Positions 4,070 to 43,758 of a stretch of DNA of 64,000 bases are shown piece by piece; positions within the stretch are counted from its first letter, which is position 1; the number at the start of each line of letters is the position of its first letter. Below the pieces are notes generated by a model that saw only the letters and a list, made by a program, of their open reading frames with translations, ran no database searches and was not told the DNA's origin. Where the stretch lies: positions 310,001-374,000 of the forward strand of contig NZ_VIRL01000004.1 of the NCBI RefSeq assembly GCF_006874465.1. Reading direction: 5' to 3'. Both the position numbers and the translations under genes were made by a program. This stretch comes from Microbispora bryophytorum (GTDB taxonomy: Bacteria; Actinomycetota; Actinomycetes; Streptosporangiales; Streptosporangiaceae).

Positions 4070-4314
4070 GAGCTACTCCAAGCTGAATCGCCTGTTGTCT
4101 CTCTTTCAGTGTGCGCCCGTTATGCGGCGTTGAGAAGAAGCCTTACCTCGACTTGTCCCTCGCATGCCGGAATGCGCCAGTGGCGGCCAGGTGGCCGGTG
4201 TCGCCGCACTCCCACCCGGTGCCGGACCAGAAGGCGGGGCGCCAGCGCTCGCGGAGGTGTCGTGCGTCGCATGACGCACACACGCCGACGTCCGGAACCG
4301 GATCGGAAAAACAG

Positions 4315-4385
4315 AGGTGGAGACGGGATTTGAACCCGTGTACGCGGCTTTGCAGGCCGCTGCCTCGCCTCTCGGCCACTCCACC
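4315..4385 (-). tRNA. tRNA-Cys (GCA)
   Basis: On the minus strand the acceptor arms GGTGGAG and CTCCACC pair, the anticodon loop reads CTGCAAA (anticodon GCA), and the T-arm contains GGTTCAAATCC. Including the U discriminator it is 71 nt, and no CCA is encoded. It lies 30 nt downstream of tRNA-Gly and is identical to the second tRNA-Cys copy at 30594-30664. Confidence 0.95.
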
Positions 4386-4415
4386 AGAGCGAGGTCCAGA
4401 TTCGCGACCTCTCGG

Positions 4416-4487
4416 AGCGGAAGACGGGATTCGAACCCGCGACCCTCACCTTGGCAAGGTGATGCTCTACCACTGAGCCACTTCCGC
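4416..4487 (-). tRNA. tRNA-Gly (GCC)
   Basis: The minus strand gives acceptor GCGGAAG/CTTCCGC, anticodon loop TTGCCAA (anticodon GCC), T-loop TTCGAAT and discriminator U, 72 nt in all. It is transcribed first, ahead of tRNA-Cys. It is identical over its length to the copy at 30708-30779. Confidence 0.95.
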
Positions 4488-11094: not shown

Positions 11095-12041
11095 GGTTCA
11101 GGCTCGTGACGGCGCTGGCCGTCACCGCGGCACTGCTGGCCGCCGGTTGCGGAGGCGACCGGTCGGGCGCGGCGGGCGGGACCCGCCTGTCGATCGCCAC
11201 CGGCAACACCACCGGCGTCTACTACGTGCTGGGCGGGGGGCTCGCCGAGCTGATCGACAAGCACCTGCCCGGCCACCGGGCGACCGCGGAGGCCACCGGC
11301 GCCTCGGTCGAGAACATCCAGCGGGTGGTCAGGGGACAGTCGGACATCGCCTTCACGCTCGCGGACACGGCCGCCGACGCGGTCAAGGGCACCGGCGCCT
11401 TCACAGCCCCGCAGCCGATCCGCGCGCTCGGCCGGCTGTACGGCAACTACACGCACGTGATCGCACGGACCGACGCCGGGATCACCTCCGTCGCCGCCCT
11501 GCGCGGCAAGCGCGTGTCCACGGGCTCGTCGAACTCGGGAACGGAGGTGATCGCGCTGCGGATGCTCGCCGCCGCCGGGCTCGATCCCGGCAAGGACGTC
11601 GAACGGCAGGCGCTGTCGCTGCCCGAGACCGTGCAGGGGCTCAAGGACGGCACCCTCGACGCGCTGGTGTGGTCGGGTGGGCTGCCCACCTCGGGCATCA
11701 CCGACCTGGTGACGAGCATGGGCGACGAGGTGACCTTCGTGCCGCTGAACGACGTGCTGCCCGCCATGCGCGCCGCCCACGGCCCCGTCTACGCGGAGGG
11801 TGTGATCCCCAAGGCGGCGTACGGCACGCCGTCCGACGTGCCGACCATCGTCGTGCCGAACCTCCTCGTGGTGAACGCGGGGATGGACGCGAAGCTCGCG
11901 GAGGACCTCACCCGGCTGGTCTTCGACCACAAGGCCGACCTGGAGAAGGTGCACGCGTCGGCCAGGGAGATCACCCTCGCCGACGCGCCGGAGACCGACC
12001 CGGTGCCGCTGCACGAGGGCGCCAGGAAGTTCTACGGCTGA
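11091..12041 (+). CDS. TAXI-family TRAP solute-binding lipoprotein
   Basis: A 316-residue extracytoplasmic binding protein. It starts with a lipoprotein signal ending in LLAAGCGG (lipobox LAAG-C, Cys about residue 19), then the TAXI hallmark LSIATGNTTGVYYVLGGGLAE. Further family blocks are ATGASVENIQRVVRGQSDIAF, VTGSS-like RVSTGSSNSGTEVIALRML, and LPETVQGLKDGTLDALVWSG. It should capture solute outside the membrane and hand it to the fused permease whose stop it overlaps (GTGA). No regulator is adjacent. Confidence 0.9.
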   Translation: MRFRLVTALAVTAALLAAGCGGDRSGAAGGTRLSIATGNTTGVYYVLGGGLAELIDKHLPGHRATAEATGASVENIQRVVRGQSDIAFTLADTAADAVKGTGAFTAPQPIRALGRLYGNYTHVIARTDAGITSVAALRGKRVSTGSSNSGTEVIALRMLAAAGLDPGKDVERQALSLPETVQGLKDGTLDALVWSGGLPTSGITDLVTSMGDEVTFVPLNDVLPAMRAAHGPVYAEGVIPKAAYGTPSDVPTIVVPNLLVVNAGMDAKLAEDLTRLVFDHKADLEKVHASAREITLADAPETDPVPLHEGARKFYG

Positions 12042-30504: not shown

Positions 30505-30579
30505 TGGTGGGCGATACTGGGATTGAACCAGTGACCTCTTCCGTGTCAGGGAAGCGCTCTCCCGCTGAGCTAATCGCCC
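30505..30579 (-). tRNA. tRNA-Val (GAC) with encoded CCA
   Basis: On the minus strand: acceptor GGGCGAT/ATCGCCC, anticodon loop CTGACAC (anticodon GAC), T-loop TTCAATC, discriminator A, then CCA encoded in the DNA (30505-30507). 75 nt including CCA. It shares its body and T-arm closely with tRNA-Val(CAC) at 40289. Confidence 0.95.
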
Positions 30580-30593
30580 TTGGACGAACCAAG

Positions 30594-30664
30594 AGGTGGA
30601 GACGGGATTTGAACCCGTGTACGCGGCTTTGCAGGCCGCTGCCTCGCCTCTCGGCCACTCCACC
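30594..30664 (-). tRNA. tRNA-Cys (GCA), second copy
   Basis: Identical over all 71 nt to the copy at 4315-4385: acceptor GGTGGAG/CTCCACC, anticodon GCA, discriminator U. No CCA encoded. It sits between tRNA-Gly and tRNA-Val in the cluster. Confidence 0.95.
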
Positions 30665-30707
30665 GTGTCGAGCCGCACAGTGTGAAGCTCCACAGTGTCA
30701 AGCTCCG

Positions 30708-30779
30708 AGCGGAAGACGGGATTCGAACCCGCGACCCTCACCTTGGCAAGGTGATGCTCTACCACTGAGCCACTTCCGC
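30708..30779 (-). tRNA. tRNA-Gly (GCC), second copy
   Basis: Identical to 4416-4487: acceptor GCGGAAG/CTTCCGC, anticodon GCC, discriminator U. First gene of the Gly-Cys-Val cluster. The 43-base spacer to tRNA-Cys contains a short direct repeat (CACAGTGTGAAGCTC and CACAGTGTCAAGCTC) and does not resemble the 30-base spacer of the other cluster. Confidence 0.95.
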
Positions 30780-40288: not shown

Positions 40289-40360
40289 GGGCGATTAGCT
40301 CAGCGGGAGAGCGCTTCGTTCACACCGAAGAGGTCACTGGTTCGATCCCAGTATCGCCCA
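40289..40360 (+). tRNA. tRNA-Val (CAC), integration target
   Basis: Acceptor GGGCGAT/ATCGCCC, D-stem GCTC/GAGC, anticodon stem CTTCG/CGAAG with loop TTCACAC (anticodon CAC), T-stem ACTGG/CCAGT, discriminator A; 72 nt. No CCA follows (the next bases are CAC), unlike both downstream partial copies, which do read CCA. That suggests its 3' flank was replaced by an integration event. Confidence 0.95.
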
Positions 40361-40361
40361 C
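40319..40361 (+). repeat. att core copy 1 (inside tRNA-Val)
   Basis: This 43-base core runs from TTCACACCGAAGAGG to the end of the tRNA plus one C. It recurs without a mismatch at 40507 and 42041. Confidence 0.85.
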
Positions 40362-40369
40362 ACGATCAA

Positions 40370-40404
40370 GGCCCGTCGGAGACCACATCTCCAACGGGCC
40401 TTTT
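40370..40404 (+). terminator. Terminator behind att copy 1
   Basis: GGCCCGT-CGGAGA pairs with TCTCCA-ACGGGCC (one mismatch in 13) and is followed by TTTT at 40401-40404. It ends the tRNA transcript. Read on the minus strand the same bases encode a tail (EQRKGPLEMWSPTGL) resembling the end of the integrase fragment at 42099. Confidence 0.8.
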
Positions 40405-40474
40405 CGCTGTTCAAAGCTTTGGCCTCTAGCCGCTCGGGCCGCCCCCCCGTAGAGATCAGCGGCGGGGAGGACTG

Positions 40475-40551
40475 TTTGATCCAGGTCGGCGGTGTGGCCG
40501 ATCTGCTTCACACCGAAGAGGTCACTGGTTCGATCCCAGTATCGCCCACCA
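40475..40551 (+). repeat. 77-bp repeat holding att core copy 2
   Basis: This 77-base block matches 42009-42085 with one substitution (GGTGTGG against GGTCTGG). It consists of a 32-base arm, the 43-base core and the first bases of a CCA end. Confidence 0.85.
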
Positions 40552-40568
40552 TGTTCGTGCAGTTCAGG

Positions 40569-40602
40569 AGGCCGGGCCGCTGTCCAGCGGGTCGGCCTTT
40601 CA
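40569..40602 (+). terminator. Terminator behind att copy 2
   Basis: AGGCC pairs with GGCCT and, inside it, CCGCTG with CAGCGG, followed by TTT. It begins 20 bases after the core, as behind the other two copies. Confidence 0.6.
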
Positions 40603-40651
40603 CTTCGTCTGGGTGACTACTGTTCCGGTGCTCTATGGATCGGTTGCGTCA

Positions 40652-41263
40652 TCAGTCCATCCAGTGGAACCAGACGTCGAAGATCGAGTGGGGCGGTCCG
40701 TCGTCGAGGTTCGTGTCGATCCTCAAGTGGGGCAAGGCCGGTCGGCTGAGGAGACGAGGACCGACGAGGGCGATGCGGTGTCGATCCAGGACCTGGAAGA
40801 TCTGTTCGCAGCCCTTCTCCCATCCGGGGATCGGCATTTCGGTGACGGCGTTGAGGCAAGGCATGGAGTGGTACCCGTGACCGTCGGGGTGATGGGAGCG
40901 CTCGTCGGGCGACAGCACGCACGCGATCGGGGCGAGGCGGCACAACGCCACTGATAATCCTTGAACCGTCGTGTGGCCGTCTAGATCGACGCGACGAGCG
41001 GATCCGTTACGCCGGGTCAAGAAGACGTCCACGAACGACGCGTAGCCGGAGCCGTAGTGTCCGAACTCCGCGTGCTCCACGACCAGTTCGGGAACTCGAT
41101 TGAGATTGGCGACCACCCGGCGCAGGTACCCTTCCGCGGCCCGCACCCCACCTGCCCAGGCGCCTTCACGGCCTACCAATTCGTCCCGGGAAGCGCGGAT
41201 CTGCGAATCGCGATCGAAGAGGAAGGCCTCGACGTCGGCAGGTACGTGATCGTCCTTGCGCAT
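40652..41263 (-). CDS. Orphan hypothetical protein in the integration remnant
   Basis: A 203-residue soluble protein. Blocks include ELVVEHAEFGHYGSGYASFV, VDVFLTRRNGSARRVDLDGH and LRIDTNLDDGPPHSIFDVWF, with many His, Asp and Trp residues towards the C-terminus. I recognise neither family nor catalytic motif. It points away from the toxin-antitoxin pair, 83 bases from it, and lies within the interval bounded by att copies two and three, so it is cargo. The ATG at 41263 lacks a strong ribosome-binding site. Confidence 0.55.
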   Translation of the reverse strand: MRKDDHVPADVEAFLFDRDSQIRASRDELVGREGAWAGGVRAAEGYLRRVVANLNRVPELVVEHAEFGHYGSGYASFVDVFLTRRNGSARRVDLDGHTTVQGLSVALCRLAPIACVLSPDERSHHPDGHGYHSMPCLNAVTEMPIPGWEKGCEQIFQVLDRHRIALVGPRLLSRPALPHLRIDTNLDDGPPHSIFDVWFHWMD

Positions 41264-41346
41264 GCCGACAGTCTGCCGGACGATGTGAGCTGATCGATTC
41301 GGCGGAACATTCGGGGTGCCCCAGGCCGCGGCGGTAGCCTGATGGC

Positions 41347-41637
41347 ATGACAGCCGAGCCGGTGCATCACGCCGAGGACGACCCTGCGGAGATCTTGCGT
41401 GTGCTGCCGGAGCGGTGGCACGAGCAGTTCCTCAGCGAGTACCACAGCGCGTTGGACGCGGCCCACGAGGTATGGCGGTTCCAGCAACTCCGCGAGCTGT
41501 TGCGTGTGTGGCGACTGCATGCGGCCGCGGTGTCCAATCCGGACTTCGCCCGTGCCGAGCAAGCGGTTCGCGAGGGCCGGCGTGACGAGTTCGTGTCGAT
41601 GGACGATGCTTTTCCTGGCTGGGCCGACCGCCGATGA
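41347..41637 (+). CDS. DUF6247-like protein, putative antitoxin
   Basis: A 96-residue helical protein: DDPAEILRVLPERWHEQFLS, EYHSALDAAHEVWRFQQLRE, then SNPDFARAEQAVREGRRDEF. This is the pattern of the actinobacterial DUF6247 family. Its stop overlaps the start of the RelE-like gene (ATGA), the usual antitoxin-first order of type II modules, and the role as antitoxin is inferred from that. No DNA-binding motif is obvious, so autoregulation is not proven. Coded within the integration remnant. Confidence 0.7.
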   Translation: MTAEPVHHAEDDPAEILRVLPERWHEQFLSEYHSALDAAHEVWRFQQLRELLRVWRLHAAAVSNPDFARAEQAVREGRRDEFVSMDDAFPGWADRR

Positions 41638-41879
41638 GCTACCGTGTGGAGCTCCACGTGGCGGCGCTGTCTCAGATGAAGGGCCTGCCAGGAGAGGCGC
41701 TTGATGCCCTGATCTCACGCACGACGGATCTTCTGGAAGAGCCATGGGATGCGCGCTCCCTTTACAAGGACGAGCCCGAATTCCGGATGACTACCTTTGG
41801 AGAGTTCGGCGTCATGTATTTCAAGGTGGACGAGGCCGACGAGCTCATCACCATCTTCAATGTGACATGGGCGGGGTAA
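41634..41879 (+). CDS. RelE/ParE-like putative toxin
   Basis: An 81-residue protein with the compact RelE/ParE layout: an opening strand YRVELHVAALSQM, a helix with LPGEALDALISRTTDLLEEP, then strands YKDEPEFRMTTFGEFGVMYF and ADELITIFNVTWAG. The RMTTFGEFGVMY strand corresponds to the region where RelE-type RNases have their basic and aromatic residues. Here only one Arg (EFRM) is present, so activity may differ. Translationally coupled to the DUF6247 gene. Small size, low GC and location between att repeats fit mobile cargo. Confidence 0.65.
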   Translation: MSYRVELHVAALSQMKGLPGEALDALISRTTDLLEEPWDARSLYKDEPEFRMTTFGEFGVMYFKVDEADELITIFNVTWAG

Positions 41880-42008
41880 CGGCGAGACGTAGCAGCAAGT
41901 CGGATCGCGTCGGTCATCGGATTGAGTGACGAACTGAGTGACAACGACCGTGGACGCCCACAGACGGAGACGGACATCCACGGATAATCGGTCCAGGTCA
42001 GAGCAGCT

Positions 42009-42085
42009 TTTGATCCAGGTCGGCGGTCTGGCCGATCTGCTTCACACCGAAGAGGTCACTGGTTCGATCCCAGTATCGCCCACCA
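42009..42085 (+). repeat. 77-bp repeat holding att core copy 3
   Basis: The same block as 40475-40551 with one change, containing the third perfect 43-base core (42041-42083) followed by CA to complete CCA. It is followed directly by the integrase stump. Confidence 0.85.
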
Positions 42086-42098
42086 GCATCACAGCAGG

Positions 42099-42221
42099 TC
42101 AGAGCCCGGACGGCGACACAGCCGCCGGGCTCTTTTTTTGATCGTGCGTTGCTCGTGCGTTATCGCGTTCGCCCCACGCCGCACGCACCGCGTCGTGGGC
42201 GTTCGGCGCGAGGTGGGCGTA
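42099..42221 (-). pseudogene. C-terminal stump of a tyrosine integrase
   Basis: On the minus strand the frame reads LYAHLAPNAHDAVRAAW then GERDNARATHDQKKSPA and stops at 42099-42101. YAHLAP...H is the conserved end of phage/AICE-type tyrosine recombinases, and the Tyr (codon 42219-42221) is the expected nucleophile. Homology ends just upstream of it; the catalytic Arg and His boxes are gone. The stop stands 15 bases from the att core, the standard place for int. Confidence 0.72.
42101..42139. terminator. Terminator behind att copy 3
   Basis: AGAGCCCGG and CCGGGCTCT form a 9-bp stem, with a further 4 bp (CGGC/GCCG) inside after a bulged A, followed by seven T residues at 42133-42139. It overlaps the end of the integrase stump. 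Confidence 0.85.
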
Positions 42222-42347: not shown

Positions 42348-42759
42348 ATGTTCGAAACTCCCGCCATCGTGCTGGTACACGGTGCCTTCGCCGATGGTGC
42401 CAGCTGGGCGCCAGTGACGCTGCGGCTACTTGACCAGGGCGACAAGGTCCTCGTGCCACCCGTCTTCAACCACCGCCTGTCCGGCGACGCGGCTTACATC
42501 GAGGCGTTCGCGGTATCACAGTGGCCTCTGTCGACGATCGCGTTCGGAGAGCCGCATCGGTGGCCGCGTGGAAGACCAAGCCGGGCTGGGAATCGTCTCC
42601 AGCGCCGACCGCACCATCAATGCCGATGTCGAGCGCTTCGGTTACAAGCGGGCCGGGCTGCGGAAGGTGATTGAGATCGATGCTCCTCACCTGGTGATGC
42701 AGACCCACCCGTCCGAAGCGGCGACCTCCATCACCGACGCGATCGCCGAACTCGGCTGA
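42348..42759 (+). pseudogene. Broken alpha/beta hydrolase
   Basis: The first part reads as the start of an alpha/beta hydrolase: IVLVHGAFADGASWAPVTLR (the HGAFADGxSW oxyanion block) up to about residue 55. The nucleophile region and most of the core are missing. The end appears in other frames: WKTKPGW, then DRTINADVERFGYKRAG and APHLVMQTHPSEAATSITDA (with the catalytic His), stopping at 42759. A large internal deletion plus frameshifts make it non-functional. It lies next to the integration scars. Confidence 0.8.
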
Positions 42760-42789: not shown

Positions 42790-43758
42790 ATGACCATGGC
42801 AGGAAACCCTTTGGGCATCTCGCTTGAGAAGGCGGCGCAGGGGTTCATCGATGCGACCGCGGAGCCCCCGTTTCTCCACCAGCTTGCTCCAGAGGCGGGT
42901 CGCAAGGCCGTCGACGCAGTGCAGGACAGTCCGATCTTCAAACCCGAGATCGACGAGGAGTGGATCAGCGTCGACGGCGGCCCCACCGGTTCGGTGAAAG
43001 TCCGCATAGTCAAGCCCAAAGGCGCCGTCGGAACCCTTCCAGTGATCATCTACACCCATGGCGGCGGCTGGGTGTTCGGCGGTGCGCACACCCACGACCG
43101 CCTCGTACGCGACCTGGCCGTCGGCGCGAACGCGGCCGTGGTCTTTCCCGAGTACGACCGTTCCCCGGACGTGCAGTACCCGGTCGCGAACGAGCAGTCC
43201 TACCGTGTGGCTCAGTGGGTTGACACCGATGGCGCCGGGAAGGGGCTGGACTCTTCGAAGATCGCTATCGCGGGCGACTCGGTAGGGGGCAACATGGCCA
43301 TCGCTTTGACGCTTATGGCGAAAGAACGCGGTGACGTCTCGTTCGTCCAGCAGGTGCTGTTCTACCCGGTGACCGACGCCAACTTCGACACCCCTTCGTA
43401 CACGGAGTTCGCCGAAGGCTACTTCCTCACCCGCGAGGCGATGAAGTGGCTCTGGGATCAGTACACCATCATTGAGCAGGACCGCGCACAGGTCACGGCC
43501 TCGCCGCTGCGCGCCACCGCCGAGCAGCTGACCGGCCTGCCGCCCGCGCTGATCATCACCGCTGAGGCCGACGTTCTGCGGGACGAGGGGGAGGCGTTCG
43601 CGGGCAAGCTGCGTGAAGCGGGCGTTCCAGTCACGCAGGTGCGGTACGGGGGGATCATTCACGACTTCGTAATGGTCAACGCCATGCACGACACTCACGC
43701 GGCCAAAGCTGCCGTCGCGCAGGCCGTCGCCGTTCTCAAGGAAGCCCTGCACGGCTGA
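42790..43758 (+). CDS. HSL-type esterase/lipase (alpha/beta hydrolase)
   Basis: A 322-residue esterase of the hormone-sensitive-lipase group. The oxyanion motif is YTHGGGWVFGGAHTHDRLV, the nucleophile is the Ser of AIAGDSVGGNMA, the acid is the Asp of ITAEADVLRDEGE, and the His is in GGIIHDFVMVNAM. All catalytic elements are present. No signal peptide, so probably cytosolic. AAGGAG precedes the ATG. Codon and base use look less GC-extreme than the core genome, as in the neighbouring remnants, suggesting joint acquisition. Followed by a hairpin. Confidence 0.88.
   Translation: MTMAGNPLGISLEKAAQGFIDATAEPPFLHQLAPEAGRKAVDAVQDSPIFKPEIDEEWISVDGGPTGSVKVRIVKPKGAVGTLPVIIYTHGGGWVFGGAHTHDRLVRDLAVGANAAVVFPEYDRSPDVQYPVANEQSYRVAQWVDTDGAGKGLDSSKIAIAGDSVGGNMAIALTLMAKERGDVSFVQQVLFYPVTDANFDTPSYTEFAEGYFLTREAMKWLWDQYTIIEQDRAQVTASPLRATAEQLTGLPPALIITAEADVLRDEGEAFAGKLREAGVPVTQVRYGGIIHDFVMVNAMHDTHAAKAAVAQAVAVLKEALHG

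Follow-up and report, generated by a model that had tools for sequence, protein, structure and literature searches.

A tandem array of integrative element ends behind tRNA-Val(CAC) in Microbispora bryophytorum and its integrase-free cassette, a probable passenger of pSAM2-like elements

Introduction

Behind the tRNA-Val(CAC) gene of Microbispora bryophytorum we found an array of three identical 43-bp cores, the first of them being the 3'-end of the tRNA gene itself. The stretch of DNA analysed, from here on the window, is 64,000 nucleotides long and belongs to a draft assembly of 137 contigs (G000:C82:310001-374000 in our numbering, where G marks genomes, C contigs and L loci). The array was probably built up by the tandem accretion of elements of two integrase families, which we call A and D, and possibly of a third one (C). 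Its main part, a module of 1491 bp between cores 2 and 3, is in this reading a cassette with D-type arms, moved in trans or in cis by the integrases of actinomycete integrative and conjugative elements (AICEs).

Layout of the array

The array consists of the tRNA with core 1, a 145-bp scar, core 2, the 1491-bp module and core 3 (Table 1). Cores 2 and 3 repeat the tRNA 3'-end perfectly, as a preliminary description of this DNA had claimed, and for three perfect 43-mers chance is excluded. The same description had noticed a further left arm common to copies 2 and 3, and this was confirmed, since positions 40475-40551 and 42009-42085 are identical at 76 of 77 bp. In an assembly-wide search the full 77-mer occurred twice, both times at this array. 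The lengths of the repeats are within the span of ordinary sequencing reads.

The segment that follows core 1 (40362-40475) showed 89% identity over 115 bp with the tRNA-proximal end of an A-family element in G007, and the match of the G007 A-integrase starts exactly there. Furthermore, its first 69 bp are 96% identical to an intact A element in G003. The copy of the A-integrase tail in the window seems to be out of frame, judging its translation by eye. The A-family end stops at 40475, precisely where a 32-bp left arm starts, and therefore we read the 145-bp unit as a deletion scar joining two different element ends. Counted with one core this unit is 188 bp long, and reading it as a scar corrects the preliminary description.

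Behind core 3, the minus strand of 42102-42221 contains a stump of 40 codons with the letters YAHLAP..., which we take to be a tyrosine-integrase C-terminus motif. The stump had no Pfam or PHROGs match and therefore its integrase identity is unconfirmed. Among 15 Microbispora genomes, its best match besides itself was at the same place in G004 (58%, E-value 1.6e-7), and a second, weak one was found in G008:C72 (E-value 0.003). Thus, the integrase tail that had been proposed at copy 1 holds, whereas the one at copy 3 is still a candidate. Tandem accretion holds as well, but not all of the ends are related, because they belong to two integrase families, A and D, each with arm repeats of its own, plus the possible third. 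The absence of a remaining integrase from the array was borne out.

A simple duplication of the tRNA 3'-end, with no mobile elements involved, agrees with the fact that the repeats coincide with that end. Nevertheless, it is contradicted by the integrase remnants, by the arm-type repeats, by the selected cargo and by the relatives that lack the module, and its probability is practically negligible.

Regarding the terminators, each core copy had been said to carry its own. The folding of the 70 nucleotides downstream of cores 1, 2 and 3 was more stable than that of shuffled sequences, with z-scores of -3.8, -1.9 and -6.6 respectively, the T-runs had 4, 3 and 7 T, and a simple terminator scan flagged only the hairpin of copy 3 (42111-42127). 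According to these data copy 3 clearly has a terminator and copy 1 likely has one, whereas the case for copy 2 is weak. Among the 57 cores of the relatives and the window the mean downstream z-score was -3.5, and 52 of them were below -1.5, with shuffles as the sole control. The hairpin sequences vary between the types of element ends, which fits elements carrying their own replacement for the tRNA terminator.

When the cores are read in antisense, short frames ending in GDTGIEPVTSSV appear (40320-40511 and 40508-40603, minus strand), which are likely spurious open reading frames (ORFs) recurring at each attachment site copy.

Table 1. Features of the tRNA-Val(CAC) array (positions in the window)
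Feature	Position	Strand	Evidence
tRNA-Val(CAC), integration target	40289-40361	+	ARAGORN, sole intact call there; Rfam 67.5 bits
Core copy 1, 3' 43 bp of tRNA-Val(CAC)	40319-40361	+	sequence repeat
Right end of A-family element: terminator-like hairpin and degenerate integrase 3'-end	40362-40475	-	similarity to G007 and G003
Left-arm fragment, 32 bp, fused to the A-family end (deletion scar)	40475-40506	+	31/32 identical to left arm of copy 3
Core copy 2	40507-40549	+	43 bp, no mismatch to tRNA-Val 3'-end
B-type right end of module, with hairpin and, at 40609-40619, the half arm-type site CTGGGTGACTA	40550-40622	+	repeat comparison, folding
203-aa ORF, without recognised family	40652-41263	-	family and structure searches; dN/dS 0.18-0.37 among intact copies
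DUF6247 protein, putative antitoxin	41347-41637	+	PF19760, E-value 1.1e-16; dN/dS 0.04-0.15
81-aa protein, putative toxin (role from gene order)	41634-41879	+	overlaps DUF6247 gene by 4 bp; dN/dS 0.06-0.13
Left arm of module, about 120 bp; full 21-bp arm-type repeat at 41922-41942	41922-42040	+	3 mismatches to published repeat
Core copy 3	42041-42083	+	43 bp, no mismatch to tRNA-Val 3'-end
C-type right end, with hairpin (42111-42127), T-run and possible stump of an integrase C-terminus (42102-42221)	42084-42221	-	hairpin scan, sequence comparison

The module and its cargo

Profile searches with the three ORFs of the module gave no integrase or transfer families, and tblastn with the A and D integrases gave no match between cores 2 and 3. 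The cargo genes are under purifying selection in the intact copies. The ratios of nonsynonymous to synonymous substitution rates (dN/dS) in Table 1 take the window copy as reference, in 10 comparisons for DUF6247 and 6 each for the 81-aa protein and the 203-aa ORF. Only copies with at least 95% coverage and no stop were used, which excluded broken ones (for example, G013 for the 203-aa ORF and G052 for the 81-aa ORF).

The DUF6247 gene and its neighbour have the layout of type II toxin-antitoxin (TA) genes, that is, two small co-directional genes with an overlap of 4 bps and dN/dS of 0.04-0.15. From gene order and size, they are likely a TA pair. The 81-aa protein had no family or PDB match, and the AlphaFold models were too poor for use, with a mean predicted local distance difference test (pLDDT) score of 45.8 for this protein (4 close sequences) and 42.5 for the 203-aa one (3 close sequences). 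No mention of DUF6247 was found in the literature searched, which left out most subscription journals.

Arm-type repeats link the module to the D family

Each integrase family has its own arm repeats, AGTCAGCGA in family A and a GAGTGAC type in family D. The repeat of the module belongs to the second type, and it is the reverse complement of the repeat of pACPL, GTCACCCAGTTAGT(T/C)AC(C/T)CAG, which flanks the identity segment of that element and has been likened to the sites bound by the pSAM2 Int (PMC3364876). The left arm of the module has the 21-bp repeat at a distance of 119 bp from the core, and it differs from the published pACPL repeat at 3 positions. On the right-hand side of core 2 there is a half-site only.

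The spacing recurs among the relatives described below. In 21 of the 34 cores that are not part of a tRNA, the best match to the 21-nt pACPL repeat had 1-6 mismatches and began 118-120 bp ahead of the core, and in the other 13 the best match had 9-11 mismatches. As a control, 500 190-mers were drawn at random from these sequences; 497 of them had 6 mismatches or more, and the other 3, which are possibly real sites, had 3 mismatches. In the whole window the repeat pattern occurred once, against 0.04 occurrences expected.

We also examined seven loci with D-like integrases in the relatives, and at four of them a pair of repeats was placed between the integrase and the tRNA. The tRNAs in question were tRNA-Val(CAC) and tRNA-Pro(TGG), once each, and tRNA-Val(TAC), twice. 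As the pair accompanies D-like integrases at several different tRNAs, the repeat tends to track the integrase family and not the tRNA. We had also considered the left arm as the 3'-end of an integrase gene, but this was dropped because a fixed spacing and a repeat suit an arm-type site better.

Relatives and census of core-to-core units

A tail query found 7 of 15 genomes of the genus at E-values up to 1e-14, the source genome counted, and 21 of 250 genomes of the family at E-values up to 1e-9, some of the latter matches being limited to a short segment that includes the initial bases of the core. We took 20 + 20 regions, joined adjacent pieces and removed one duplicate of the window and two regions without a core (G074C21 and G002C35, allowing up to 8 mismatches). 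The resulting 35 oriented sequences, window included, contain 57 cores, which delimit 22 core-to-core units. This count leaves out units in which a core is degraded beyond detection, as in G165, and the unit at L043 is doubtful, its second core being weak.

Homologues of the full module were present in G008, G011 and G013, at 84-87% identity to the window over about 1.59 kb including the cores, and outside the genus in G132, at 77%. Other genomes keep parts of it. G005 retains the first half, and a HicA-like gene replaces the second one (PF07927, 2.6e-16); G012 has the second half only, and G004 the middle and the arm.

The GAGTGAC-type repeat was found to the left of the right-hand core in 17 of the 22 units. 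Only two of these 17 contain an intact D-family integrase (L045, 16.3 kb, and G106C92, 9.5 kb), two contain an integrase fragment and 13 have no match to the A or D integrases. Full-length DUF6247 matches were found in 9 of the 15 units without an intact integrase, and HicA-like matches in 2, one of them partial. The smallest unit with cargo, 822 bp in G132, is made up of DUF6247, the 81-aa gene and the left arm. In nine units the half-site B end is combined with the D left arm, and none of the nine has an integrase match.

These counts bear on plain decay, according to which the small units would be AICEs that decayed independently, were inherited vertically and are immobile, their arms being leftover attL and attR. 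Decayed elements do exist here, namely the 145-bp scar, the integrase fragments in G002 and G152 and the broken cores in G165, and the decay of AICEs is known in Streptomyces (PMC9513070). Nevertheless, nine units in two genera with the same B end, the same D arm and no integrase look like descendants of an integrase-free ancestor and not like repeated decay. Plain decay also conflicts with the trees and the identities given in the next section, and we consider it unlikely.

The distribution was also examined by other means. A degenerate pattern of the junction with the left arm was found in contigs of Microbispora rosea, oryzae, siamensis, amethystogenes and hainanensis, and the match in Actinomadura nitritigenes was limited to the core and about 7 bp beside it. 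No stretch of the viral contigs matched the degenerate left-arm/core junction pattern exactly, and the matches to phages (4 records) and plasmids (3 records) were confined to the tRNA/core stretch of the queries. An order-wide search with the core in the query returned mainly tRNA genes, with 2 candidates scored per genome, and no count was drawn from it.

Several other arrangements were seen among the relatives. In G152:C34 (L087-L088) the tRNA-Val is followed by four consecutive core-to-core units. One of them, of 17 kb, has no integrase, and its arms are of the D type, with a half-site at the right end and a D arm on the left. At L095 (G165:C53, around 11300-11330) the distal core ends after about 14 bp, leaving a broken attachment site at the end of a HicA-bearing unit. 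L098 (G002:C35, near 71.8 kb) has a B-type end and an intact homologue of the 203-aa ORF, away from tRNA-Val and with no detectable core or second arm. Finally, four places of G009:C94 are 91% identical to the 3' 35 bp of the core and may be another tRNA-based array.

Evidence on movement

The preliminary description had proposed the comparison with related genomes, and it is this comparison that gave differing arrangements, including junctions without the module, instead of one arrangement common to all strains. Three types of evidence were obtained.

i) Junctions without the module. The DNA after the tRNA core of G006 corresponds to the DNA after core 2 of G008 over 683 bp at 87%, from the first base of the core. 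Similar junctions were found between G007 and G013 (404 bp, 87%) and between G004 and the window (182 bp, 82%), both again from the first core base, and in these two cases the common flank is itself an element end.

ii) Exact boundaries. The alignment of the G011 and G013 modules coincides to the base with the outer limits of the two cores, left and right, and both outer flanks of G013 are unlike those of G011. The contig of G013 has no tRNA and therefore we infer the place of this copy in its array.

iii) Disagreement with the chromosome. Compared with 12-13 kb of upstream chromosome, the module was more similar in two pairs, G008-G011 (93.8% vs 87.7%) and G011-G013 (93.3% vs 88.5%), and the relation was reversed between the window and G013 (84.8% vs 93.1%). 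The module tree rejected the chromosomal grouping (p 0.0013) and the tRNA flank rejected the grouping of the module (p 4e-5). When the halves were tested, the right one, which comprises DUF6247, the 81-aa gene and the left arm, rejected the chromosomal grouping (p 0.004). It is 96.5-98.7% identical between species whose chromosomes are 87.7-88.5% identical. Since only the right half is in conflict, the cassette is a mosaic in which the DUF6247 and arm half spread recently.

The tree conflict fits site-specific and homologous recombination alike. If homologous recombination were the whole explanation, incoming DNA, arriving by conjugation or otherwise, would swap cassettes at the cores, arms and flanks with no current action of an integrase. 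The mosaic structure agrees with this, as in G008 and G011, where the right half is 98.7% and the left half 89.9% identical, and so do the differently combined cargo halves of G004, G005 and G012. However, the unlike outer flanks of G013 and G011, with homology ending exactly at the cores, are simpler under site-specific recombination, and an arm repeat held at a fixed distance counts against homologous recombination alone, which we regard as quite improbable.

Candidate helpers and the proposed mechanism

Two relatives have an open frame for a D integrase that could act as a helper. In G106 it adjoins RepSA (PF20199, 2.9e-168) and a GntR regulator, and is flanked by a D right end on one side and, on the other, by the left arm that the cassettes also have. 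In G152 it is located at the tRNA, the far end of its unit is of the A type, and cassettes come next in the same array.

Close copies of the module are found at the same spot in related species with different neighbours, and therefore it probably spread via the machinery of other elements. We suggest that A, D and possibly C elements, having the 43-bp core in common, were inserted in tandem and that their integrases were mostly lost. The unit between cores 2 and 3 belongs to a family of integrase-free cassettes that keep the D arms, with the full repeat left of one core and the half repeat right of the other. A pSAM2-like AICE integrase of the D family would excise and insert the cassette in trans; alternatively, the cassette may move in cis, as a composite with a neighbouring AICE that also supplies the transfer. 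Every insertion would restore the 3'-end of the tRNA and add a terminator-like hairpin, the DUF6247/81-aa pair may act as an addiction module, and the cassettes would exchange halves through recombination. In the source genome we found no integrase of family A or D that is similar enough for this task, and therefore the cassette may be stranded there. That genome has 13 Phage_integrase matches in all.

Some observations weigh against the mobility of the module. Regarding the cargo, it is broken in some relatives, as the 203-aa ORF is split in two frames in G013, the 81-aa ORF of G052 has an internal stop and that of two G132 copies is partial, the match in one of them starting after the first 8 residues. 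Regarding the trees, the G008-G013 modules agree with the chromosome (92.9% vs 92.0%) and the left half is compatible with the chromosomal tree (p 0.16), so that much of the conflict could be due to a homologous exchange limited to the right half. Regarding the sites and helpers, the right arm is limited to a half-site, the exact repeat pattern is absent at three of the seven D-like integrases (at tRNA-Val(CAC), at tRNA-Thr and at one locus without a called tRNA), and the nearest A/D candidates of the source genome are a 52-residue fragment of a D integrase at 79% and otherwise remote matches at 28-58%. Furthermore, mobility is deduced from sequence comparison, and no excised circle or movement was observed.

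The 1.5-kb module had been described before as a CIME-like islet (CIME, cis-mobilisable element) that could be mobilised in trans. The islet stands, and mobilisation in trans gains from the fact that the arm repeat was retained, from the exact boundaries and from the conflict of the trees. On the other hand, it loses from the lack of a close A/D integrase in the source genome. A wider proposal is possible, although we make it only tentatively: a lasting family of integrase-free TA cassettes with arm sites behind tRNA-Val, which would swap cargo and cross species and genera on helpers in trans, as a counterpart of miniature inverted-repeat transposable elements (MITEs) and integron cassettes for pSAM2-type recombination.

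If our reading is right, the cassettes would be a very small natural substrate, of about 0.8-1.5 kb, with which the requirements for hitch-hiking on an actinomycete integrative and conjugative element (ICE) could be studied, as they consist of a single core, one arm site or two, and an addiction pair. Mobilisation in trans by AICE integrases would be directly testable. Moreover, arrays of mobile cassettes behind tRNA genes would probably be overlooked by programs that search for elements through their int, rep or tra genes.

Other features of the window

Downstream of the array, 42348-42759 looks like a broken alpha/beta-hydrolase gene whose start and end are in different frames, and it is followed by an esterase-like ORF of 322 aa at 42790-43758, both families being assigned by eye. 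The window also has tRNA clusters with repeated Cys and Gly genes, Cys-Gly at 4314-4487 and Val(GAC)-Cys-Gly at 30505-30779.

Comparison with known systems

CIMEs are defined as elements that retain attL and attR, lack the integration and transfer genes and are found in tandem with other elements at one target (PMC5704250). The module resembles them in its identical 43-bp cores on both sides, exactly where homology ends, in the absence of integration and transfer families, and in its tandem position, with the A end at core 1, the possible C-type stump at core 3 and, in G152, an array whose tRNA adjoins an open D integrase. However, classical CIMEs are described as decayed ICEs or integrative and mobilisable elements (IMEs), whereas here we have a recurrent family of 0.8-3.5 kb, whose arms and cargo are shared by two genera.

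With pSAM2 and pACPL the module shares, besides the repeat, the tRNA 3'-end as target, and RepSA adjoins the D integrase in G106. In contrast, int, xis, rep and tra are all absent from it, and its right arm is limited to a half-site. Therefore, lacking int, rep and tra, it is not an AICE, despite its AICE-type arms.

The accretion of AICEs and defective AICEs (DAICEs) at a Streptomyces tRNA-Arg is similar in that 1-3 elements lie between identical direct repeats together with an older remnant (PMC9513070). Nevertheless, the defective elements described in that source retain traB, which the module cassettes do not have. The islands at ssrA of Dehalococcoides are also in tandem at an RNA gene, and 15 of the 31 have no integration module and were suggested to be cis-mobilisable (PMC3146451), but those islands are larger, use serine recombinases and carry reductive-dehalogenase cargo. 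Arrays of clusters of attC sites lacking integron-integrases (CALINs) and MITEs likewise have no recombinase of their own and can be moved by one in trans (PMC11389934), through attC sites or transposon ends in their case and through a tRNA core and arm-type sites here.

An integrase-free cassette family of this kind was not described in the literature searched, most subscription journals being outside it. The array is of a kind already known, that of CIMEs and accretion elements (PMC5704250, PMC3146451, PMC9513070). What is unusual in this accretion is the form of its CIME-like core, which is small and recurrent, lacks an integrase and combines an arm site of the pSAM2 type with a conserved cargo of two genes.

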